DNA from: Victivallis vadensis
GTDB lineage: Bacteria; Verrucomicrobiota; Lentisphaeria; Victivallales; Victivallaceae
Assembly: GCF_003096415.1 (NCBI RefSeq)
Contig: NZ_QEKH01000023.1
Span: 1 to 64,000 of the forward strand
DNA length: 64,000 nucleotides
Direction: 5' to 3'
Each line of letters begins with the position of its first letter. Position 1 is the first letter of the stretch. Of the stretch, positions 1 through 56,207 are shown one piece after another. A program made the position numbers and the translations under genes. Under the pieces are notes generated by a model that saw nothing but the letters and a program-made list of their open reading frames with translations, did not search any database and had not been told where the DNA came from.

Positions 1-3000
1 AATGGCGAATTCTACAAAGTCGGCACGAACGCGTTCAGCACTCTCTCGGAAGCGGTCAGCGCCGCAGAGGAGAACAGCGTCCTGACCGTCGCGGGCGCAA
101 ACTACGGCAGCGCCGCGCTCAACATCAACGCGTCCCAGACCTGGAAGGCGGGCGACGATGCCGCCATCACCGGACTCGCTACAATCAACATCGCTGACGG
201 CGTCACGTGGAACAACCTCGCCGCGATCGACATCGCCGCCGGTTCCACCCTGAAGCTCAACGACCGCAACAACACCAATCCGGACAATGGCGGCATCTGG
301 CGCGAATACACGTTGAACGGCAGGATTACCGGCGGCGGCCGCCTGGAATACATGAGCAGCCAGACGAATGCGAACACCAGCCTGATTCTGGGCAACGGCC
401 TGTATGCCGGTGCGGCGGACGGCGCCGGCATCGCGGTTGGAGCGCGCCGTCTCTACCTGAACGGCAACGGCGCGAATGTCACGGTCGTCAGCTATGCTCC
501 CAACATGATTCTTGACGGAATCTGGGGCGGCAGTGCCGTGGCGGGAGCCGCGATCAATCAGGACCTGACGGTCAAGGTCGACGGAGTCGGCTTCTCCGGA
601 GTGACCGACGGGATTTACGGCGGCGGCCGGGATGCCGACATCATCGGCAATATCAGGGTCGAGCTTGCCAATATCCCCGGCGGCAATGCCAAAATTGACG
701 TATTCGGAGGCAATGTTCTGGACAGCGTCGCCGGAGACCGCGGCGTAATTACCGGCAATATCTCCATTACGATCACCGACAGCACCGTGGGCCGCGTGTT
801 CGGCGGCAGTGAAAGCGGCGGCAGCATGACCGGAAACACTTCCGTGACGCTGACCAACTCGACCGCCGGAGCGGTCTACGGCGGCGGCGGCGGCACCTTT
901 GCGGTGAACGGCAACACGTCGGTCACGCTGACCGGCTCCACCGTCGGCTCCGCGACCGGCGCCGGAACCGTCTATGCCGGAGCCATGCAGACAGACGGCA
1001 AGGTGACCGGGACCGCCATCCTGATCGTGACGGATTCCACTATTTACGGACGCGTCGGCGGCCCCAACGGCAGCGTCGGGCGCACCAGCATCACGTTGAA
1101 CGGCAACACCGTAGTCGGCGGCGACAAGGTGTATGTCGAAAGCATGGCCAGTTCGGTGTTCGGCGGCACGGTCGACGAACGCGGCGGCGCGGGTTCCACC
1201 TTTATCAGCGTCGGCGGCAACACCCGGCTGCTCGGCAGCGCCTTCCAGACCGGAACGGCCGGCGGCAATCTCTACGGCGGCAGCCGCCAGTATTCGTGGG
1301 TGACCGGCGACACCGAAGTCGAAATCAAGGATAACGCCTCAATCGCCGGTTCGGTGTTCGGCGGCGGCATCGGCAACGGCTACAAGGGCTATGACGGCGT
1401 CGGCGGCAATACGTCGATCACGGTTTCCGGCAGCGCCGAAGTCGTCGGCGACATCTACGGCGGCGGCGAAACGAGCAACGGCGACGACGGCGGCTACTCG
1501 GTCAAGGGCAATACCGAAATCACCATCCGGGACAACGCCGGTGTCCACAGCATCTACGCCGGAGGCAAGGCGGGCACGGTCGGCGGCACCGGCACGATCA
1601 CCGTCTGCGGCGGCACTTTCGCGGCCGGTTCGGTGATTGACGGCGCCAATGTTGCGGGCGGCACCACCCTGAACCTTGAAAACGTCGCTTCGGTCGCCGA
1701 TGTCACGTTCCGGAACCTGGCGCTGGTCAATGTGAAGCAGGATATGGCCTATTCCCTGAACCGGTTCGTGAACGTCGCGGAAATCTCGATCTCCGCCGGC
1801 AAGACCCTGACGCTGGATGCGGCCAACACCGATGTGACGCTCGGCTCGGACGTCACCGGCGACGGCAAATTCGCGGTAAACGCCCGTGATTTCTACGCCA
1901 ACGGCAAAAGCGTTACACTGAGCGACAGCACCATCACCGGCAAGGTGACCGGGGCGACTTACACGACTCCCGGCGGCAAGGACTTCACCTCCACCGACCT
2001 GACGTTGAACAATGCGGCGGTAACCGGGGATGTCTACGGCGGCTCTTATTACACCGGCCATGTCGGTTCGGCCAAGGTCACCATCAACGGCGGCACCTAC
2101 AACGGCCGCGTCTACGGCGGCAGCATCACCGACTATTACTACGATGAAATCACGGTGGACCATGCGGAAACCGTGATCACCGCCGGAACCTTCGCCAAGG
2201 AAGTCTACGGCGGCAGCGGGGCGGCTTCCTCCGTCAAGCTCGGTTCGAGCCTGACGATCTCCGGCGGCACCTTCTCCAATTCGGTGTTCGGCGGCGGGGG
2301 CGGCGGTTCCTTCGTCGGCGGTTACACGCTTGATGCCGGTAATATACCGGTGGAAGACGCCTCCCTGCCGAAAGCGGACAGCACCCTTACCATCACCGGC
2401 GGGACCTTCAACACCAAGTCCTCGAACAGCATCGGCGGCGTCTACGGCGGCAATGCCCACGGTTTCGTAACCGGCAACGCCTCCGTTGCAGTGACCGGAA
2501 CGGATACCGTCAGCATCACCGGTCCGGTTGTCGGCGGCAACAACGCCTCCAGTCCCTCCGGCCGGGCGGCCAACTACATCGGCGGCAACGCCTCCGTAAT
2601 CATCGGCAACGCCCATGCGGTGATTGCCGGAAACGTGGCCGGCGGTTCCAGCAGCCGGAAGTACGAGGGCGGCGGCTCCGCGACGCTGGTCAAGGGCAAC
2701 AGCTCCGTGACCATCTCGGCCGGAACGGTCAACGGCAATGTCTACGGCGGCGGCTTCGGGATTTCCGGCGGCATTTCGACCGTGAACGGCAATACCTCCG
2801 TGACAGTTTCGGGAGGCACGGTGAACGGCAACATCTATGCCGGAGGCAATGAGTTCAGTACGGTCGGCGGCAACGTCACCGTCACGGTCAGTGGCGGCAA
2901 TATCACCGCCGACCTGATCGACGGCTGCAACGTCTCGGTGGATGGGACCAGCACCTTCGTCTATGACGATGCCGCGACCTTCAGCGTCAGGACGGTCCGG

Positions 3001-4944
3001 AACTTCGACAAACTGGTCATCAACCGCAACGCCGACCTGACCGGAACCGAATTCAAGGAGATCGGCGCTCTGGAGCTCGGCGCCGGTGTCGATGATGTGA
3101 AGTTCGACAAACTCACATTCAGCGAGGATGCGTCATTGACGGTCGGAAAAAACACGACGCTGCGGGGCGAATTCACGCTCGGCAAGCGTAATTCGGAAGT
3201 CGTCCAGAAGGCCGATATTACCGGTACGATGACAGGCGCCGGCGGAGAATCCGTCCTGTACGTCAGCGGTAAGCGCGCGGAAGTGAATCTCTCCGGCGAT
3301 ATCAGCAATGCGGCTCACGGCATCAAATTCGGCGGCAACGAACTTATCGTCGATACGATCGGTTCAATGGACCTGAGCACCGGCAGCAGGCATACCTATT
3401 GCAACGGCATCTTCGCCAACAGCGATAATGGAGACCTGACGACTGTGGTCGGCCGTATGACCGGTCGAATTTCCGTCGAGGAATTCGGCGGCCAGTTCGC
3501 AAACGGCATTTTCATGGACGGCGGCGCCAGCAGCACCTTCAAATTGAATGAATTTGCAGCCGGCGCTTCCATCCGGGCTTACAGCGCCGGCGGTTTTGCC
3601 TCCGGTTTCAGCAACCAGGCGGATTTCGACGGTAATGCGCCTGCGGATGTCCGCGGTACGGCGGTCGCCCTGACGGAAATCGCCCCCCTGGCCGGTTCGA
3701 TCGAAGCATATGCCGATCAATATGCCGCAGTCGGCGTCAACGTCTCCGGTGAAGCCAGAGGCGATCTGACGGTCGGAACCCTCTCCGGCAGCATCTACGC
3801 CGAACTCTCGCAGAGCTCCAACTATCACGAAGGAGCATACGGCCTGATGACCGGCACGGAAAACGCAGACGGCACTTCCATCCTGACGGTCCGCGATCTC
3901 TCCGGCACGGTTGCTGCCAATGCCGTCTCCGCGAAGAATGACGACGGCCGGACGATGGCATACGGTCTTGTCGCCGGCACCAGCGTCAATGCGACGATTT
4001 CCGGTACGGTCTTCGCCGGCAGCTATCAGGGCAATGACCTGATGGCGAAGCTCGCCGGAGTCCGCAACGGCAGCGTCGCGGCCGATTCGCTTGCGGCTTA
4101 CGCAACCGGAATTGCGATTGTCGGCGGCAGCCGGAGCGATACGATCACGCTGAAGAGCGGCGCCATGATCTTCGGCGATATCGATCTTGGAACCGGTGAC
4201 GATACACTGACGATGGAAAACGGCGTCACCGTGAACGGGAAGATCAGCCTCGGCGACGGCAATGACAAGATCACCGTCAACGGAACTTTCTCCGGAACGA
4301 TCGATCTCGGCGGCGGCCAAAACACGCTGACGATTTCCGCTGCGACTGACCTGACGAACAGTACTCTCACCGGTACGCTTTCACGTCTGGAAGTGGCGGC
4401 CGGCAAGACCGGTACGGTAGCTGTCGATGACGCGCTCCTCGCCGCTTCGGGAGAACTCTGCATCAGTGTGGACGGCCGCAGCTACGACAGCACGGAAGCG
4501 GCGGTCAGCGTCACCGCCCCGCTGGATTCGAGCCTGTCGATTTCGATCGAAGTCCCGGCGGTCTGGGGCGGTGTGGAGAGTGCGAAAGAGATCATCCTGA
4601 TCAGGAACCTGACCGGTTCGACCGGCGGGCTCGGCATCGACGGCATGACGATCACCGTCTTCGGCAAGCTCGGCAAGGTTTCCGGCGAACTCGGTTCCGC
4701 GCAGGTCGGCGGAGCGGCCACGGTCGATTTCGGCATGGGAGCGAACTGGGGCCTCAAGCTCAATGCAAACGGCGACCTGGTGTTCTACAACGATATGCCC
4801 CGAACCATGGCGGCATTCAACGAACCGTCGATCGCCTCGGCGATGAACTGCCTCGCGACCGAAAACATCGTCTCCGGCTGCGGCAGCACGCTCGACGCGC
4901 TGAACCTCAACCTGGACGCCGACAACAAGAAACAGTTGGCGTAA
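1..4944 (+). CDS. Giant beta-helix repeat surface protein, 5' partial
   Basis: The frame is open from the first base, so the start lies upstream; the first in-window start-like codon (TTG at 313) is internal. At least 1647 residues are visible. Most is a degenerate repeat of about 25-35 residues built on GNTSVTVSGGTVNGNVYGGG-like units, rich in Gly, Asn, Thr and Ser, as expected of a right-handed parallel beta-helix or adhesin/autotransporter passenger. Near 4180-4320 the pattern changes to GTGDDTL and GDGNDKI, resembling RTX calcium-binding turns. No C-terminal beta-barrel, LPxTG or PEP-CTERM signal is present; it ends DADNKKQLA. A 35-codon peptide gene follows after 39 bp with no terminator between, so they are probably co-transcribed. 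The surface location is inferred from repeat type. The ligand is unknown. Confidence 0.85.
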   Translation, partial: NGEFYKVGTNAFSTLSEAVSAAEENSVLTVAGANYGSAALNINASQTWKAGDDAAITGLATINIADGVTWNNLAAIDIAAGSTLKLNDRNNTNPDNGGIWREYTLNGRITGGGRLEYMSSQTNANTSLILGNGLYAGAADGAGIAVGARRLYLNGNGANVTVVSYAPNMILDGIWGGSAVAGAAINQDLTVKVDGVGFSGVTDGIYGGGRDADIIGNIRVELANIPGGNAKIDVFGGNVLDSVAGDRGVITGNISITITDSTVGRVFGGSESGGSMTGNTSVTLTNSTAGAVYGGGGGTFAVNGNTSVTLTGSTVGSATGAGTVYAGAMQTDGKVTGTAILIVTDSTIYGRVGGPNGSVGRTSITLNGNTVVGGDKVYVESMASSVFGGTVDERGGAGSTFISVGGNTRLLGSAFQTGTAGGNLYGGSRQYSWVTGDTEVEIKDNASIAGSVFGGGIGNGYKGYDGVGGNTSITVSGSAEVVGDIYGGGETSNGDDGGYSVKGNTEITIRDNAGVHSIYAGGKAGTVGGTGTITVCGGTFAAGSVIDGANVAGGTTLNLENVASVADVTFRNLALVNVKQDMAYSLNRFVNVAEISISAGKTLTLDAANTDVTLGSDVTGDGKFAVNARDFYANGKSVTLSDSTITGKVTGATYTTPGGKDFTSTDLTLNNAAVTGDVYGGSYYTGHVGSAKVTINGGTYNGRVYGGSITDYYYDEITVDHAETVITAGTFAKEVYGGSGAASSVKLGSSLTISGGTFSNSVFGGGGGGSFVGGYTLDAGNIPVEDASLPKADSTLTITGGTFNTKSSNSIGGVYGGNAHGFVTGNASVAVTGTDTVSITGPVVGGNNASSPSGRAANYIGGNASVIIGNAHAVIAGNVAGGSSSRKYEGGGSATLVKGNSSVTISAGTVNGNVYGGGFGISGGISTVNGNTSVTVSGGTVNGNIYAGGNEFSTVGGNVTVTVSGGNITADLIDGCNVSVDGTSTFVYDDAATFSVRTVRNFDKLVINRNADLTGTEFKEIGALELGAGVDDVKFDKLTFSEDASLTVGKNTTLRGEFTLGKRNSEVVQKADITGTMTGAGGESVLYVSGKRAEVNLSGDISNAAHGIKFGGNELIVDTIGSMDLSTGSRHTYCNGIFANSDNGDLTTVVGRMTGRISVEEFGGQFANGIFMDGGASSTFKLNEFAAGASIRAYSAGGFASGFSNQADFDGNAPADVRGTAVALTEIAPLAGSIEAYADQYAAVGVNVSGEARGDLTVGTLSGSIYAELSQSSNYHEGAYGLMTGTENADGTSILTVRDLSGTVAANAVSAKNDDGRTMAYGLVAGTSVNATISGTVFAGSYQGNDLMAKLAGVRNGSVAADSLAAYATGIAIVGGSRSDTITLKSGAMIFGDIDLGTGDDTLTMENGVTVNGKISLGDGNDKITVNGTFSGTIDLGGGQNTLTISAATDLTNSTLTGTLSRLEVAAGKTGTVAVDDALLAASGELCISVDGRSYDSTEAAVSVTAPLDSSLSISIEVPAVWGGVESAKEIILIRNLTGSTGGLGIDGMTITVFGKLGKVSGELGSAQVGGAATVDFGMGANWGLKLNANGDLVFYNDMPRTMAAFNEPSIASAMNCLATENIVSGCGSTLDALNLNLDADNKKQLA

Positions 4945-4983: not shown

Positions 4984-5091
4984 ATGGAAAAATTCGACTA
5001 CGAACGTCCTGAACTGATTGAGTTCAGTGATTGGAATGGCATTCAGGGAGCCGACAGCTCCGGCACCGGCGGAGAAGGCGGACAGCCCTGA
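4984..5091 (+). CDS. Candidate RiPP precursor peptide (35 aa)
   Basis: A short ORF with a purine-rich ribosome site (AGGATTGAGAG) before its ATG. The peptide has an acidic/aromatic leader with Y6-E-R-P9-E-L, which fits the YxxPxL motif that lasso-type leaders use to bind PqqD-like recognition proteins, and a Gly/Ser-rich tail GADSSGTGGEGGQP. There is no Cys. It sits directly after the giant repeat gene and just before a terminator, and the next operon encodes a PqqD-like protein, a kinase-like protein, an exporter and a peptidase. Leader/core boundaries cannot be read from the sequence. The precursor role is inference from motif plus context; the alternative is a small unmodified peptide or chance ORF. 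Confidence 0.6.
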   Translation: MEKFDYERPELIEFSDWNGIQGADSSGTGGEGGQP

Positions 5092-5108
5092 GCCCCCTCC
5101 CCCGCAAC

Positions 5109-5152
5109 TCCGGGCGGCGACAGTTTACCACTGCTGCCGCCCGGATATTTTT
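5109..5152 (+). terminator. Rho-independent terminator after the peptide gene
   Basis: TCCGGGCGGC pairs with GCCGCCCGGA, with an inner CAG/CTG stem and a 7-base loop, followed by TATTTTT. It closes the transcript carrying the repeat protein and the small peptide. Confidence 0.8.
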
Positions 5153-5173
5153 CCGCACAATTGCCGAAACCGC

Positions 5174-5207
5174 TTGACAAGAATACATTCATCCTGTAGT
5201 TTATAGT
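5174..5207 (+). promoter_or_regulatory. Promoter of the kinase/PqqD/ABC/peptidase operon
   Basis: TTGACA at 5174-5179, 17-bp spacer, TAGTTT at 5197-5202 (TATAGT at 5202 is an alternative -10). It lies between the terminator and the kinase-like gene, so the modification/export genes have their own promoter, separate from the precursor. Confidence 0.6.
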
Positions 5208-5233
5208 GATTATACAAGAATAAGCATTAAAGT

Positions 5234-6106
5234 GTGACAGTTCCTTTCATGGTCCGGTATCTGGATTTAAACAAGCGAGTACAATGGCAGGCGGAAAATG
5301 AGTCCACCGTGCTCCTGCTCGATAAGATGGGTGATATCGCCGGTCTATCCTTTACGGCCTCTCCGGAAAACGCTTCACCGCTTTTTGATTTTTCCCTGAT
5401 TCCCGAACCGGTTTCTCCGTCGGGGGAAATCAAATGGATGGATACGCTTTATTTCGCCTCCGACAGCGACTGCCGTCACCTGCGCGCCATTGGCAGAATC
5501 CGCAACCGGACGCCGGAGGAACTGGGTTTCCTTTACCGCCGTCTCTTTTTCTACGGGCTGCTTTCCGAACTATTGGCGGGGGAACTTTTTTACTTTCACG
5601 GCGGCCTGCTGGTTCACAATGGTTCCGGAACACTGTTTTCCGGTCCCAGCGGAGTCGGCAAGAGTACGTTTGCCCGGCGGATCACCCCGGATTTTGAAGT
5701 ACGCAGTGATGATCTGGTGCTGCTTTACCGCAAAACAGGCCAGTGGTTCGCCCATCCGGCCCCCACCTGGAGCATCTGGTTCGCCAATACGGCGCTGCCG
5801 CGCCGCTATCGGACGGCGGAACCGGTCCCGTTGCGGAATTTCATCCTGCTCGGCCGCGATCAGGTTGAATCCTTTTCCACCCGGCTGCCGCTTCCGCTCC
5901 GGCAGATCGGGCTTTCCCGGGCCTTGAATGACCTCGTCCATATCCTCGCCTCGCCGTGTCCGCCGGAGTTCCGCCGGCGTTTATCCCAAAATATCCTGCA
6001 CGGCGCCTCCGAATTATGCCGAAGCCTGCCGGGCGGCTATTTCAAGCTGAACCTGACCGATGATCCCCGGAGCAATCCGGACTTCCGGCGGTTCCTCGAC
6101 TCCTGA
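5234..6106 (+). CDS. HPr kinase-like P-loop protein of the RiPP-type cassette
   Basis: 290 residues. The C-terminal half resembles the HPr kinase/phosphorylase fold: Walker A GPSGVGKST at about residues 136-144 and the SDDLVLL segment at about 157-163, matching the conserved DD motif of that fold. The N-terminal half is not recognised. Stand-alone HprK relatives occur in some peptide clusters (for example paeninodin-type lasso clusters), where they phosphorylate a precursor Ser; a similar role on the Ser-containing 35-aa peptide is an inference. Gap to the PqqD-like gene is 26 bp. The start is uncertain: GTG at 5234 or ATG at 5249, neither with a strong ribosome site. Not a PTS regulator by context. 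Confidence 0.7.
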   Translation: MTVPFMVRYLDLNKRVQWQAENESTVLLLDKMGDIAGLSFTASPENASPLFDFSLIPEPVSPSGEIKWMDTLYFASDSDCRHLRAIGRIRNRTPEELGFLYRRLFFYGLLSELLAGELFYFHGGLLVHNGSGTLFSGPSGVGKSTFARRITPDFEVRSDDLVLLYRKTGQWFAHPAPTWSIWFANTALPRRYRTAEPVPLRNFILLGRDQVESFSTRLPLPLRQIGLSRALNDLVHILASPCPPEFRRRLSQNILHGASELCRSLPGGYFKLNLTDDPRSNPDFRRFLDS

Positions 6107-6132
6107 TCTAACAACCAACTCAAGGAAATACC

Positions 6133-6393
6133 ATGAAAGTCAATCCAGAAATCATTCTGCGTGAAGAGTTTGACGGCAGCGCATTTCTGTTCAATCCCGA
6201 CGACGGCCAGATCTTCGGCCTGAATCCGACCGCGAAGTTCATCTGGAAAAGCTTGGCCCGCGACGAAACGCCGGAGCAGATTCTGGCCGGCCTCGCCGAA
6301 CACAGCGCCTCCCCCCTCCCCCCGGAGGCGGAGAAAGACCTGAATGATTTTCTGCTCCAGCTGCAGGACAAAGGCTACCTGTCACGGAATTGA
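6133..6393 (+). CDS. PqqD-like RiPP recognition protein
   Basis: 86 residues with the PqqD family pattern: an N-terminal beta-rich part (LREEFDGSAFLFNPDDGQIFGLN) leading into NPTAKFIWKSLARDETPEQI and a C-terminal helix ending LQLQDKGYL. These winged-helix proteins bind leader peptides and deliver them to modifying enzymes. AAGGAAATACC precedes the ATG. It lies in the middle of the cassette and is the strongest single sign that a ribosomal peptide is processed here, with the YxxP peptide at 4984 as the obvious partner. Confidence 0.8.
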   Translation: MKVNPEIILREEFDGSAFLFNPDDGQIFGLNPTAKFIWKSLARDETPEQILAGLAEHSASPLPPEAEKDLNDFLLQLQDKGYLSRN

Positions 6394-6396
6394 ACC

Positions 6397-8091
6397 ATGC
6401 CCAGTTCTCCCGTCTGGTCCGCCTCCTCTCCTGAAAACTCCGGCTTTACCGGGGTATGGCGTCTCCTGCGCCCGGAGCTGATTCCGGAAAAACGGCGAAT
6501 CGCCCTGCTTGGGGCCATCGTGCTGATCTCCACCGCGATCAGCTACCTCTCTCCATGGCTTCAGCGCAAATGCATCAACGCACTGGAGATCCGGGTCTGG
6601 GAGCCGGCGGTCCAGTTCGCCGCCGCGGTCTTTTCCGCCATCGCCGCGGCCCGGCTGCTCGACGCGGCGGAGACCTATCTGGTCAATATCCTGAATACCC
6701 GGATCGGCCTCTCCCTGAAGCGGCGCATGCTCGGCAGCCTGCTCGGCCTTTCCGCCGCCAGCATTTCCCGGCTCGGCAGCGGTTATATCGCCGGGCGGCT
6801 GTTGAACGACCTCGATACGAGCAGCTATCTCTATTCCGGCGTGCTCTGTTCGGGGGTGCGCAATGCGCTGAAAATCATCGGCGGCTTCTGCTTCATCGCG
6901 CTGTTCGACTGGCGGATCGCCGCCGGATTGCTGCCCGCCCTCGCCTGTTACTGGCCGGTCGCCGCATTGTTCCGCCGCCGCCAATATCAGCTGGCGCTTG
7001 AAGTCTGCGAGCGCCGCGCCGAATCCAACCGCACCATCTATGACGCGCTGCGCAATATCACGCTGGTCAAGGCCGGGACGGCCGAACAACAGGCGAACGA
7101 CCGGTTCCACAGCGAATTGAACTCCATCGAGCAGCTCCAGCTGCGCCGTTTCAAGCTGGACAACCTGTTCCGGGCCGCTCTGCTGCTTCTGCCCGGCATC
7201 TGCTACGCCGGAGTCGCCGCGCTCGGCATTCACATGATTCTGGCCGAACGCTGGACGCTCGGTGAATTCTGGGCGTTGAATTGCTATCTGTCCTATCTCT
7301 TCAATCCGCTTCAGGCACTGTGTGCCTCCACGGTCCGGGTCCAGCAGGCGGTTGCGGCGGCAGGACGGCTGCTGCAATTGCAGCGCCTGATGCCGGAGCC
7401 GGGCGGCGGTTCAAGAAAGGCCGACCGCCTCACCGGAAAAATCACAATCCGGCGCCTGAATTTCTCCTATGATGCCGCCACTCCGGTTTTCCGCGATTTT
7501 TCTCTGGAAATCTCTCCGGGCGAAAAGGTGGTGATCACCGGAGAAAGCGGTTGCGGGAAAAGCACTCTCGCCGCCTTGCTGCTCAGTTTCTACCGCCCCA
7601 CTTCCGGGGAAATTCTTTTCGACGACCATCCGCAGCATGAGTACGAGCTTGCCACCCTGCGCCGCCGGATCGGTTACCTGAGCCAGGTCACCGAATTTTT
7701 CAACGGCACCATTCGGGATAATTTGAGCAGCGGACTCGATCGGGCTCCTGATGACGCCGAACTGCTTCAGGCCCTACGGACCGCCGGGGTCGACGAGCTT
7801 CTCCGCCATCTGCCGGACGGCCTGGACAGCCGGATTTTTGAAGGCGGAGCCAATTTTTCCGTCGGGGAACGGCTGCGGCTGGCGCTCGCCCGCGAGCTGT
7901 TGCGCGACAGCGATATCATCATTTTCGACGAATCCACCGCCAATCTGGACCCGGTGCACGAGCAGCAGCTGCTCGACGTGATCGACCGTCACTTCAGCAC
8001 GAAAACCATTCTGCTGATCTCGCACCGCGAAAGCAGCATCGCCCACTTCTCCCGCCGGATTCATCTGGAAAAACTCCGGGAGCGCTCATGA
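6397..8091 (+). CDS. ABC exporter, fused membrane and ATPase domains
   Basis: 564 residues. The N-terminal ~320 residues are a type-I exporter membrane domain with several hydrophobic helices; the C-terminal ATPase has Walker A GESGCGKST, Q-loop YLSQ, Walker B DIIIFDES and switch His in ISHRES. The signature is degenerate: SVGER in place of LSGGQ. There is no N-terminal C39 peptidase domain, so leader removal must be done by another protein, plausibly the peptidase encoded next. It starts 3 bp after the PqqD-like stop and overlaps the next gene by ATGA, so translation is coupled. The likely role is export of the mature peptide. Confidence 0.85.
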   Translation: MPSSPVWSASSPENSGFTGVWRLLRPELIPEKRRIALLGAIVLISTAISYLSPWLQRKCINALEIRVWEPAVQFAAAVFSAIAAARLLDAAETYLVNILNTRIGLSLKRRMLGSLLGLSAASISRLGSGYIAGRLLNDLDTSSYLYSGVLCSGVRNALKIIGGFCFIALFDWRIAAGLLPALACYWPVAALFRRRQYQLALEVCERRAESNRTIYDALRNITLVKAGTAEQQANDRFHSELNSIEQLQLRRFKLDNLFRAALLLLPGICYAGVAALGIHMILAERWTLGEFWALNCYLSYLFNPLQALCASTVRVQQAVAAAGRLLQLQRLMPEPGGGSRKADRLTGKITIRRLNFSYDAATPVFRDFSLEISPGEKVVITGESGCGKSTLAALLLSFYRPTSGEILFDDHPQHEYELATLRRRIGYLSQVTEFFNGTIRDNLSSGLDRAPDDAELLQALRTAGVDELLRHLPDGLDSRIFEGGANFSVGERLRLALARELLRDSDIIIFDESTANLDPVHEQQLLDVIDRHFSTKTILLISHRESSIAHFSRRIHLEKLRERS

Positions 8092-8642
8092 ACTACATCT
8101 ATCACGGCAACAGCATGAAGCGCGTTTTTCAGGCGGGCGACGTGCCGGAACTGCGGGAAATTCCGTTCCATGAGTTCCGGCGCGGCGATATCGTCTGCTT
8201 CCGCCGCCCGGATGGAGCAGAGGTGATTCACCGTGTGTATCACACCGCTCCGGAGGCGCTGACCACATGGGGAGACAACAACCTTCGGCCCGACCCGGAA
8301 CCGGTCCGTGCGGAGTGGAATCCCCGGCTGGCGGTCGGCTTTCGGCGCGGAGATAACCGTTTCCTTCTGCCGCGCGGACATGCCGGGATGCGGCAATTCC
8401 GGTTCAACCGCCTGCGATTCCATCTGCGCCGTCTGTGCGGCATTCCGTTCCGATTTCTCGCCCGCGGTGCGCGATGGTGGGGAATCCGGCAACTGGAGTA
8501 CGAAACCTTCGCTCGGGACCGCCATTATTTTTACCGCGGCAAACCGATTGCCCGGAAGCGCAAAAACGGCCCCCTCGAATATCGCCGCTGGTATTACCGG
8601 TTGTTTTTCTTCATTCAGGAAGACGATTCCGTCTCACGCTGA
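8088..8642 (+). CDS. S26 signal peptidase-like protein
   Basis: 184 residues. GNSMKRVF near residue 8 matches the catalytic-serine box of S26/S24 peptidases (SM), and RGDIVCF then VIHRVYH matches the downstream boxes with His in the general-base position, as in archaeal/eukaryotic-type (S26B) signal peptidases. GDNNLRPD follows the pattern of the next conserved box. No transmembrane helix is evident; the C-terminal 90 residues are very basic and unrecognised. It overlaps the ABC gene (ATGA). The inferred job is cleaving the leader of the cassette's peptide. Confidence 0.65.
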   Translation: MNYIYHGNSMKRVFQAGDVPELREIPFHEFRRGDIVCFRRPDGAEVIHRVYHTAPEALTTWGDNNLRPDPEPVRAEWNPRLAVGFRRGDNRFLLPRGHAGMRQFRFNRLRFHLRRLCGIPFRFLARGARWWGIRQLEYETFARDRHYFYRGKPIARKRKNGPLEYRRWYYRLFFFIQEDDSVSR

Positions 8643-8718: not shown

Positions 8719-8793
8719 TGCGGGGTGGAGCAGTGGTAGCTCGTCAGGCTCATAACCTGAAGGCCAATGGTTCGATTCCATTCCCCGCTACCA
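8719..8793 (+). tRNA. tRNA-fMet (CAT anticodon)
   Basis: A full cloverleaf of 75 nt with encoded CCA. The anticodon loop CTCATAA in a TCAGG/CCTGA stem reads CAT. The acceptor 1:72 pair is a T-T mismatch, an initiator-tRNA trait, and the body closely follows bacterial tRNA-fMet. Its 3' part from 8744 onward is repeated at 27741, so this gene is the integration target of the island. It has no terminator immediately downstream: the apparent original one is at 27803. Confidence 0.95.
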
Positions 8794-8799
8794 TTTTTC
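8744..8799. repeat. Left attachment repeat (attL)
   Basis: 56 bp identical to 27741-27796, beginning in the tRNA anticodon stem (TCAGGCTCATAA) and ending six bases past the CCA. Confidence 0.9.
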
Positions 8800-8946: not shown

Positions 8947-10386
8947 ATGTCAATCAAAATCCGAAGCAAAAAGTTCCATTACCGTTTCATGGTTGCCGGA
9001 GTCAGTTATTCCGGCATCTGTAAAGGCTGTGAAATTCCGCCGGGAGCTTCTGCGCGGGAAATTGCCACTTTCAAAAAGCGCGCAGAACACTTTGAGGCAT
9101 CCGAGCGTACCCGCATTCTTCGCGAAAATGAAGAGCAGAAAGAGATCGAACGGGATATCCGCCGCAACAAAACGGTCATCGCACTCGTCGAAAACTATAA
9201 GTATGAATTGACCGGCGGTCATCCTGTCCTCTTGGATGAAGCGTTTGAATTGGCCGCTCAGAAACCATCCAGACGTATCGCCCAACCCAGTTATGCCGGC
9301 TTGAAGAAAACTTACTGGCAGGATTTCTGTGCCTATATAGCGCACTTTTATCCCGATATCACGGAAATTTCCCATATCCAGCGTTTGCACTGCGAAGCCT
9401 ATGTCAAATATCTGACCGATAACGGACATTTCCGGAAAGAAATCCGGTATACTGTTCAAAATGGTCACATGTCACGCGAAGTCTGCTATCACAGCCGTTA
9501 TCGGATTTCGGCCAAGACGATCAAAGAAATCGTCTGCGTTTGCCGAGGGATCTTCACCCGCCTGATGGAAGATGCCGGGCTGATTGTCAATCCCTGGAAC
9601 GAAGTTATCCTGCCGGAAGAAGAGAGCACTCCCCGGAGAATCTACACTCAGGAGGAAATCGCAAGAATCGCCGAAGGGATATCCGAAGATCCGCAGCGAA
9701 TGTGAAACGTCTATCAAGGCCAATCCGATCAGTTTGATCTCTGGTGTCAATACGCCCGTTTCTGCCGTCCCCTCTTTCTGATCGGAGCTTCCGGTTGGCC
9801 TGAAGTCGATATCTGTACAATGACCTGGGATAATGTCGATTGGAAAGCGCGGGCCATCATACGTAACCGCAGCAAAACCGGAGCGAATATGGTTCTGTTT
9901 TTTACCCCCGATATAGAAAAACTGCTTCGGTTTTAGCCGCAAACCGGTCAATATGTCTTCCCGGAACATGCGGAAATGTATCTGCGCCATTCCGGTTGTG
10001 TTTCGTACCGTGTAATCAAATTCCTGAAAGGACTTGGCATCACGACTTCAATACAGATACCGGAACGCCGGGCCGCCAGCGTCAAAGATCATCACAGCCT
10101 TCGCCACTCTTATTGTACCCTGGCAAATAAAGCCAGAATTCCGGTCAGTGTCAGAATGAAGCTTGCCGGTCATAAAACGGTAGCGATGGCGGAACACTAC
10201 GCCAATCACAACGATCTGGATGATCTACGGGAAGCCGCACAACATCTTCCTACTCTTTTGCCAGCCGCCTCTTCCGACGCGTACCCAACAGTCCGGCGGA
10301 ACAGATTGGCTAATCTGGCATATACACTGCCACCGGAAACGATTGATTATATTCTTTCTCTTGCCATTCCTGCCAAATCAAGTTAA
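8947..10386 (+). pseudogene. Tyrosine integrase, broken by two in-frame stops
   Basis: One continuous frame from ATG 8947 (ribosome site AGGGAGGAG) to TAA 10386, interrupted by TGA at 9703-9705 and TAG at 9934-9936. The N-terminal part has the SAM-like core-binding region; the C-terminal part has HSLRHSY (H-x-x-R), LAGHKT and a candidate nucleophile Tyr in AEHYA. The first catalytic Arg box is degraded: GASGWPEVD where TGLRxGE is usual. Full length would be about 480 residues. Its position next to attL marks it as the island integrase. Stop-codon readthrough is unlikely given the lost Arg. Confidence 0.88.
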
Positions 10387-25902: not shown

Positions 25903-26787
25903 ATGATGTCATATATTTCAATTGCCGCCTCGCCGCAGTATTCCACCGTTACACTTCAGGTCGGCTTGAAGGAAAGATTGCGCTGTCTCCATATTTCGGA
26001 TACCCATCTGCTCTTTTCCGACGGGCGTGACTGCCAAGCAAAATACGATGTGGCGCTTCGGCGCTGGGGAGAATACGTTTACGCCAATGTAGGGCGCAAC
26101 GTCACTTATTTTCTGGATGCGCTCCTTTACGCGAAACGGAACGGTCTCCTGCTGCTCCACACCGGGGATCTGATCGACTTCTATTCTCCCGCCAATCTTG
26201 AGGCGGCGGAACGGCTTCTGGAGCTGGCCGGAGTGGACTGTTTCCTGTGTGCGGGAAATCACGAATACACCAATTATTCCGGCCAGCATCCGGAGAGCCC
26301 GGAGGAGCAGGAGGAAGCACGCCGGGAAGTTCCGAAAATTTTTGCCGACAGACTCGATTTTGCTTCCAGAATCATCGGCGGAGTCAACTTTATCGCCATT
26401 GACAACAGCTCGGGATTTTTCCCGAAGGAATCATTCGACTTCTTTAATGCGGAAGCCGCCAGGGGGCTGCCGATGATTCTGCTGATTCACATTCCGATCT
26501 ATACGCCCGGAGTGCTTGCGATGCTTCGGGACGAGGAAAACGTCAGGGATTTCAGCTTGTGCGCCATCCCGGAGAATCTTCCGGGTGCCGGTTGCAGATA
26601 TGCTCCGACGGATGCCGTGACACTGAAATTTGTCCGGCGGCTGAAAAGCGAACCTTTGCTGAAAGCAGTGCTGGCGGGACACGTCCACGCTCATCGCAAC
26701 CAGATGGATGAACTTGCTGCGAATCTTCCCCAGCTTGTGGCGGGCGGAGGATATTATGGCTGCGGCACGATTATTGAAATCAGTTGA
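25903..26787 (+). CDS. Calcineurin-type metallophosphoesterase
   Basis: 294 residues with all metal-binding boxes in order: DTHL (near residue 32), GDLID, GNHEY, LIHIP and GHVHAHR. Hydrolyses a phosphomonoester or diester; the substrate is unknown. AAGGGG precedes tandem ATGs (25903 or 25906). It follows the GH36-like gene by 9 bp. Its last 34 bases overlap the antisense integrase remnant, so its 3' end sits at an old junction, although the protein ends in a sensible GYYGCGTIIEIS. Confidence 0.8.
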   Translation: MMSYISIAASPQYSTVTLQVGLKERLRCLHISDTHLLFSDGRDCQAKYDVALRRWGEYVYANVGRNVTYFLDALLYAKRNGLLLLHTGDLIDFYSPANLEAAERLLELAGVDCFLCAGNHEYTNYSGQHPESPEEQEEARREVPKIFADRLDFASRIIGGVNFIAIDNSSGFFPKESFDFFNAEAARGLPMILLIHIPIYTPGVLAMLRDEENVRDFSLCAIPENLPGAGCRYAPTDAVTLKFVRRLKSEPLLKAVLAGHVHAHRNQMDELAANLPQLVAGGGYYGCGTIIEIS

Positions 26788-27491
26788 CCTGCCATCATCA
26801 CAAGCAATCCTGTATGATATGCCAATAGATTATAAAGCAGTGATGAATGCAGATCCTTGATGCTGATCGCCCGGCGGCCTTCCGGCTTTTTCGTCGTTTT
26901 GATTCCAAGTCCTTCCAGAAAACGCTTGATTCGGTACGAAACCAGCGAAGCATCGTGCAGATACATTTCGGCATGTACCGGAAATACATATCCTCCTCGT
27001 CGCGGAAGAGTTTTCAGATAATTCTCCAAAGCCGACAGAATCGGAATTGCCATATCGACGCCGGTTTTGCGGCGCTTGCGGAAGATCATCCGGGTTGCCC
27101 ATGAAATTTCATCCCATTTGAAAGTACAGATGTCGCCTTCGGTCAGACCGGTCACGGCGGCAACCAGAAACAGCGGACGGCAGAACTCCGAAAGTTCGTC
27201 ATCCCGGAAAATGGCCCGCTTGATGAGTGCAAGTTCCGGTTCGGAGAAAATCTCCCGGTCGGTCTGTTTCCACTCTGGAGTAATCACATTTGCCCACGGA
27301 TTCATGACGAGTCCGGCGTCTTCAGAAAGCTTTGTGAAAATGGTAATCTTCGGATAAGTCACTTTCATAAATGCCAGAAGATCATTCTCCAAACGCAGTT
27401 TCTGCCTGACGATATGTTCCGCCGGTATCTGCTTCGACGGTTTCTCCAGTGAAAGCGCAACGGTGTTCTTTGAGACGGAATTTGCCTTCAA
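26754..27491 (-). pseudogene. Second tyrosine integrase, truncated and frameshifted
   Basis: Closely parallels the integrase at 8947: SEDAGLVMNPWANVITPE, RPLFLVAAVTGLTEGDICTFKW, GYVFPVHAEMYLHDASLVSYRIKRFL. The usual Arg of TGLRxGE is Thr. After SIKDLHS the frame drifts (SLLYNLLAYHTG), destroying H-x-x-R, GH and Tyr boxes, and the N-terminal core-binding part is largely missing. It lies 250 bp inside the right attachment repeat. It is a relic of another integration at the same tRNA. Confidence 0.8.
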
Positions 27492-27740: not shown

Positions 27741-27796
27741 TCAGGCTCATAACCTGAAGGCCAATGGTTCGATTCCATTCCCCGCTACCATTTTTC
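27741..27796. repeat. Right attachment repeat (attR): tRNA-fMet 3' fragment
   Basis: 56 bp identical to 8744-8799. The preceding bases do not provide a tRNA 5' half, so it is not a functional tRNA; it is the displaced original 3' end. Confidence 0.9.
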
Positions 27797-55168: not shown

Positions 55169-55229
55169 GAATCCCTGATTCAACGTCAGGCGAGAAGTTC
55201 AGGAAAAAGCTGTTGCTTTGAGGACTGGT

Positions 55230-56207
55230 ATGGCTGAGACAATGTTACTGCGCGGCGCGCACTTTCAATTGACCGGACGCTGCAATCTTCACTGCCGTTT
55301 CTGCGGACAGTCGAAGGGAATGCTGGCGGCGGGAGAATCCGAACTTCCCGTGGAAACGTGGCTGCGGCTCGCCCGCGAAGTCAGGGCGCTGGCCGACACC
55401 CCGGAACCGGAAATCACCCTCTGGGGCGGCGAACCGCTGCTCTATTCCGGTTTCCCCCGGCTGGCCCGGCGGCTCAAGGAGGAGGGATTCCGGGTCGCGG
55501 CGGTCACCAACGGCACTCTGATCGACCGGATGCCGGAGCTGCTGTGCGAATATCCGGACGTGATCCATCTCTCCATCGACGGCTTCGGCGCGGTGCATGA
55601 CGCGGTGCGCGGTTCCGGCGTGTTCGACCGGGTGCGGCGGAATCTGGAGCTGATTCGGGAACGCAGAGGCAAACTGATTTTCCTGACCACCGTTTCGGAT
55701 GCGAACGTCGCGGAGCTGGCGGAGCTGCCGGAACAACTGGCGGAGCTGGGCCCCGACGAAATCGTATTGCAGCAGCTGATGTACCTGACCCCGGCGGAGA
55801 TCGCCGCCTACCGGAAGTTCAGCGCGGAAAACTTCGGCTGCGACTATCCCGAACTGAAAGCGTGGCGGCGGGAGGATGATGCGGCCTATCTGGCCATGCT
55901 GAGACGGCAGCTTGCCACGCTGGCGAAACGGAGCCATCCGGTTCCGGTCCGCTTCACGCCGCACAGTTATCCGGACCGGCTGCCGGATGCGCCGGCTTGT
56001 CAGGCGCCGTTCCGCCGGGTGCATATCCGGCACGACGGAGCGGTCGGCTTCTGCACGGATTACTTCGGCTTCTCCGCCGGCAACGTCAAAGAGCTGCCGC
56101 TGGAAGCGATCTGCCGAAGCCCGGCTGCGGAGCGTTACCGGGCAGCCGTCCGAAGCGGCGAACTGCCCATCTGCGACCACTGCCCGTGGAGATTGCAGCA
56201 ACTCTGA
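55230..56207 (+). CDS. Radical SAM/SPASM protein
   Basis: 325 residues from ATG 55230 (GAGG 6 bp upstream; TTG 55218 has no ribosome site). CNLHCRFC is the [4Fe-4S] CX3CX2C motif, followed by LWGGEPLLYSGF and LSIDGFGAVHD. The C-terminal SPASM-type auxiliary cluster is shortened: CQAPFRRVHIRHDGAVGFC and CDHC. Such proteins modify peptides or proteins or act as anaerobic sulfatase maturases. No PqqD-like domain and no peptide gene or sulfatase nearby, so the target in this sugar operon is unclear; the RiPP cassette at 5-8.6 kb lacks its own radical SAM. Confidence 0.8.
   Translation: MAETMLLRGAHFQLTGRCNLHCRFCGQSKGMLAAGESELPVETWLRLAREVRALADTPEPEITLWGGEPLLYSGFPRLARRLKEEGFRVAAVTNGTLIDRMPELLCEYPDVIHLSIDGFGAVHDAVRGSGVFDRVRRNLELIRERRGKLIFLTTVSDANVAELAELPEQLAELGPDEIVLQQLMYLTPAEIAAYRKFSAENFGCDYPELKAWRREDDAAYLAMLRRQLATLAKRSHPVPVRFTPHSYPDRLPDAPACQAPFRRVHIRHDGAVGFCTDYFGFSAGNVKELPLEAICRSPAAERYRAAVRSGELPICDHCPWRLQQL

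Follow-up and report, generated by a model that had tools for sequence, protein, structure and literature searches.

The five genes at positions 4984–8642 of the 64,000-nt stretch analysed here (hereafter, the window) probably form a RiPP cassette without a radical SAM enzyme, which works in the manner of the Linear Polyphosphorylated Peptides (LPP) by releasing and exporting a phosphopeptide. This reading starts from the genes, folds and motifs found in the window, and from a gene order, a peptide and a Ser/Thr position that are conserved in relatives. By analogy with LPP, the discrete RRE (B) would bind the precursor (A) at the YxxPxL of its leader, the kinase (K) would phosphorylate Ser25 and/or Ser26, which lie three to four residues beyond the cleavage site, and the peptidase (S), guided by B, would cut after Gly22 to give the acidic 13-residue phosphopeptide, which the exporter (D) would then carry out of the cell.

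The source genome, of the order Victivallales, is 5.2 Mb long and 99.5% complete, and the window belongs to its contig C23. All the genes of the cassette lie on the plus strand: A, a YxxP precursor of 35 aa (4984–5091), in which the predicted cut separates the leader MEKFDYERPELIEFSDWNGIQG from the core ADSSGTGGEGGQP; K, an HprK/PEPCK-fold kinase and predicted peptide Ser kinase (5234–6106); B, a PqqD-type RRE (6133–6393); D, an MsbA-like ABC exporter (6397–8091); and S, a soluble SipW/Sec11-type peptidase and predicted leader peptidase (8088–8642). K and B are 26 nt apart, B and D 3 nt, and D and S overlap by ATGA. The original prediction had claimed the order YxxP peptide, HprK-like, PqqD-like, ABC exporter without C39 domain and S26-like peptidase, and all five ORFs were found as placed, with B over its Pfam cut-off and K and S backed by their predicted folds; family searches of the cassette likewise agreed with the claimed absence of radical SAM and lasso B2 or C genes, and found no NTP transferase (NTase) in it either. 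Between A and K, on the plus strand, there is a hairpin followed by a U-run (5109–5145), terminator- or attenuator-like when its folding was compared with shuffled sequences: the fold of 5088–5165 reaches -30.1 kcal/mol (z -5.2) and no shuffle was equally good. The position of this strong hairpin and U-run suggests that A is produced in excess over the cassette enzymes. Simple promoter and terminator scans gave signals at chance level.

In order to find relatives, genome contigs were scanned with an RRE alignment (A5), which was closer than the kinase alignment. An RRE of the cassette type was present in 46 of the 137 genomes of the order Victivallales, and in the about 60 loci that we read K, B and S are mostly close together, often with D. 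LPP-like sets thus occur across Victivallales, and the gene order, whose conservation elsewhere the original prediction had proposed as a check together with the presence of the small ORF beside homologous cassettes, recurs across these loci. As for the small ORF, a YxxP ORF with an ATG start was found in 15 of 18 gaps between a kinase gene and the gene of a giant protein upstream of it (window included; the giants are described below), against a mean of 0.07 and a maximum of 1 in 200 dinucleotide shuffles of the same gaps and none on their antisense strand. The small ORF of the window is therefore more than a chance ORF.

Most of the gap peptides have in common Y-E-x-P, then a hydrophobic-x-Gly site 16–20 residues from the Tyr, and after it an acidic core in which Lys and Arg are almost absent. 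A Ser or Thr lies within the first four core residues in 14 of the 15 peptides having hydrophobic-x-Gly, compared to 6.8 for shuffled cores (p = 0.0001, a post hoc value, because we chose the core boundary from the alignment); the site is absent from the peptides of loci L033, L034, L059 and L074. In the window peptide, counting from the predicted core boundary, Ser25 and Ser26 occupy core positions 3 and 4, and the predicted core of 13 residues is acidic and has no Cys. The [M+H]+ calculated for this core is 1119.45, and would be 1199.42 with one phosphate and 1279.39 with two. In another locus (L083, 1255–1928) four tandem paralogous YVAP peptides of 26–27 aa stand upstream of the kinase and the RRE.

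The kinase matches the Pfam HprK family weakly (E = 0.0012, under cut-off), and its structure model resembles PEPCK (E about 1e-6) and HprK/P (E about 1e-5). On this model K is an HprK/PEPCK-fold kinase; it carries the active-site motifs P-loop, His and Asp-Asp and, at an identity to other cassette kinases of at most 27%, keeps 12 of the 12 residues invariant among 15 cassette kinases, including those of the P-loop, DD and PTWS. Its best NCBIfam match is ScmC of the SynChlorMet (SCM) systems, at 52.4 of the 125 bits required, and its exact place in the kinase tree is unsure because of its long branch.

The assignment of B is firmer, with 55.9 bits against Pfam PqqD (cut-off 23.4). The RRE profile matches LppB, the RRE of LPP (9x8z; E = 9.7e-6), and in the alignment to 9x8z_B Asn31 and Asp69 of B align with Asn33 and Asp70 of LppB, the pair that holds the YxxP motif and that many RREs of lasso and PQQ systems have too (PMC13381572). 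In the RRE tree LppB, entered as a fragment of only 70 residues, forms a long branch; a search with the LppB fragment against plasmids gave no match. The best NCBIfam match of B is ScmD, under cut-off at 71.2 of 100 bits. D combines an ABC membrane domain with an ATPase domain and lacks C39, and its best NCBIfam match is MsbA (E = 6.7e-78), under that family's own cut-off. S scores 51.8 bits against the archaeal-type signal peptidase family TIGR02228, whose cut-off is 51.85. A PDB sequence search with S gave no match and Foldseek alone no significant one; structural re-alignment of the model did, both with E. coli signal peptidase (Z 9.4, 2.2 Å over 93 residues) and with human SPC-C (Z 8.2), so that S, as modelled, has the signal peptidase fold. 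Its Ser9, His48 and Asp63/Asp69 are invariant in 13 relatives.

The LPP family was described and partly reconstituted in Nat Commun in May 2026 (PMC13381572). It is defined by a SipW-like peptidase, a discrete RRE, an HprK-like kinase, an NTase, an MsbA-like exporter and a YxxP precursor; its kinase phosphorylates Ser3 of the core, its Ser-His-Asp SipW-like peptidase removes the leader in an RRE-dependent manner, and the family was termed restricted to Bacillota (PMC13381572). The window set resembles the cluster of Paenibacillus alginolyticus (lppAKBSDN) in the YxxP leader and the Ser at core position 3, in the HprK-like kinase, the discrete RRE with its Asn/Asp pair and the MsbA-like exporter, in a SipW-like peptidase with 39 residues from Ser to His (Ser29/His68 in LppS), and in having neither cyclase nor radical SAM; this likeness was judged from the published description and LppB. 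The two sets also differ. LPP clusters contain an NTase (PF14907), which is absent from the window set and present in some of its relatives. Of the LPP leader motif, YxxPxVLxHQxIxFETxxS (PMC13381572), the window leader has YxxP, the hydrophobic residue at -3 and the Ser at +3, but not the middle part VLxHQxIxFET. The core is of 45 residues in LPP and of 13 (predicted) in the window; LppS docks on LppB through an N-terminal helix (PMC13381572) that S does not have; the neighbours are capsule genes in LPP and a giant-protein gene in the window; and Victivallales belong to a phylum other than Bacillota. Since the NTase and the full leader motif were looked for and not found, the window set is LPP-like, a variant and not a member of the family. 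The original prediction had seen in the kinase the possible sole tailoring enzyme of a phosphorylated or otherwise novel peptide; the kinase stands as the likely tailoring enzyme, and the novelty does not, the LPP gene set having been described already (PMC13381572).

The NTase PF14907 is found in part of the Victivallales loci, among them L046, whose gene order A-K-B-S-N is the LPP order. S and the NTase are fused in one protein in L033 (1661–3322) and L034 (6268–7929), suggesting that they act together. The source genome has one NTase on another contig, C34, in a neighbourhood of polysaccharide-type genes, and we did not retain it as a distant partner of the cassette.

Other relatives add radical SAM enzymes to the same core, and they bear on the likeliest alternative, namely that the window holds a reduced or trans-complemented SCM cassette, in which a radical SAM encoded elsewhere modifies the peptide, with kinase and peptidase as accessories. 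SCM systems (ScmC/D/E/F, TIGR04248–TIGR04251) share with the window a related kinase and RRE, ScmC and ScmD being the best NCBIfam matches of K and B, and the S-type peptidase and the NTase are likewise present at SCM loci in Victivallales, Omnitrophica and Saganbacteria. Among the relatives, L042 has two radical SAMs, which pass the cut-offs of ScmE and ScmF, and in L039 (8695–9863) and L057 (8613–9868) the gene of a single ScmE-like radical SAM stands between those of peptide and kinase. The window itself encodes a 329-aa radical SAM at 55218–56207, about 47 kb from the cassette, but this protein is under every NCBIfam cut-off. The window cassette also has neither ScmE nor ScmF, stays under the thresholds of ScmC and ScmD, and stands outside the two-radical-SAM loci, which form single clades in the K tree and in the RRE tree (100/99 and 100/95); membership in SCM fails on these grounds. 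The precursors point the same way: those of the two-radical-SAM cassettes have Cys repeats and those of L039 and L057 two core Cys, in contrast to the radical-SAM-free sets, the window included, whose predicted cores are free of Cys (the peptide of L059, without a hydrophobic-x-Gly site, has one). We therefore consider a reduced or trans-complemented SCM cassette unlikely. Our literature search found no paper on SynChlorMet, nor on HprK with PqqD and a lasso peptide; cassettes extended by a single ScmE-like radical SAM or by the SCM pair, with Cys-bearing precursors, are new here.

Directly upstream of A the window contains a Gly/Thr/Ser/Asn-rich repeat protein on the plus strand (1–4944), truncated by the contig start, which ends in KKQLA 39 nt before the A gene. 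With its 5′ end lost, it measures 1543 aa when counted from position 313, where its first start codon lies, and 44% of it is Gly, Thr, Ser and Asn. Such a giant gene lies directly before A or K in 18 of the 26 radical-SAM-free loci having at least 1.5 kb upstream, counts that are not independent because many loci share genera, and in none of the five two-radical-SAM loci with as much upstream sequence. The 18 giants are ORFs of 565–2287 aa with 35–44% Gly+Thr+Ser+Asn (background mean 22%), and 14 of them, the window giant included, end in Leu-Ala. The window giant matched neither Pfam nor the C-terminal domain common to other cassette-linked giants, and is tied to these by composition, position and Leu-Ala end only. 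That domain has one copy in the source genome, adjoining a second cassette on contig C5 (L031/L111) made of the peptide MEKDKFEYETPALEPMTEKVTAVQGATGVDPDPEHPGID, K and B; in four congeners lacking a cassette the search found no copy. The giant of L034 carries RTX repeats, and the cassette there is prolonged by genes for HlyD and a C39-like type I exporter; an exporter 67% identical to this one, with HlyD, is present on contig C32 of the source genome. The giants would then be secreted by a type I route of this kind. Judging from co-localisation only, secretion of the window giant is probable, and so is a role of the peptide in the same surface structure. The giant neighbour of radical-SAM-free cassettes is new here; the original prediction had overlooked it, as well as the second and a third cassette of the genome and the graded relation to SCM cassettes.

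This recurrent neighbour raises another possibility, in which the peptide serves only as an adaptor for recruitment and the giant protein is the true substrate of K and S. In L054, K indeed follows the giant gene at once and no peptide was found between them. Against this, the peptide is kept in most of the gaps with a Ser/Thr site of its own, sets without a giant neighbour exist, and the substrate in LPP is the peptide (PMC13381572), so that we regard the adaptor role as rather improbable. Even less credible is a lasso peptide that relies on B2 and C from elsewhere in the genome: paeninodin-type phosphorylated lasso clusters do share with the window a discrete RRE, a YxxP/WxxP leader, an ABC exporter and an HprK-like kinase whose target is a Ser of the core, and Ala1 and Glu9 of the core would permit a nine-residue ring, but the B2 peptidase and C cyclase are missing and a SipW-like peptidase stands instead, PF13471 (B2) has no match above cut-off anywhere in the 99.5% complete genome, the single full-length Asn-synthase-type protein (PF00733) is on another contig, the predicted core is only 13 residues long, relatives have no acid at a fixed ring position, and PbaB1 has Gly42 and Gln79 at the places of Asn and Asp in the window RRE, so that lasso membership fails.

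Returning to the LPP-like cassette and its probable phosphopeptide, we tentatively propose, as a possibility rather short of an even chance, that in Victivallales the cassette is a dedicated partner of type I-exported giants, with peptide and giant protein belonging to one surface system, and that the same enzyme core has been joined by no radical SAM, by one or by two. If this is true, LPP-like and SCM cassettes are the ends of one series. For the role of LPPs, capsule genes have been the sole hint (PMC13381572), and a second lineage with a different, strongly recurrent neighbour, the giant, gives an independent hint at the function of LPP-like peptides. The series of zero, one and two radical SAMs, with Cys-free and Cys-bearing precursors, offers a natural test of the addition of tailoring enzymes to a fixed RRE-kinase-peptidase core, and the precursors of the window type are a very short, easily synthesised set.

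The third cassette of the source genome (L109, 7408–9348 on contig C4) is divergent and has no radical SAM. Its two YQKPVLEVIDF peptides differ little from each other and are accompanied by a short kinase, an RRE and a SipW-like peptidase; the cassette may stand closer to LPP-type leaders from other phyla.

Downstream of the window cassette, a perfect 56-bp direct repeat (8744–8799 and 27741–27796) covers the 3′ part of a tRNA-Met gene (8719–8793). It bounds a stretch of 18,997 bp with integrase-like ORFs at both ends (8947–10386, broken into frames, and 26754–27491 on the minus strand), which is probably a genomic island inserted at the tRNA; the cassette sits just outside this putative island.
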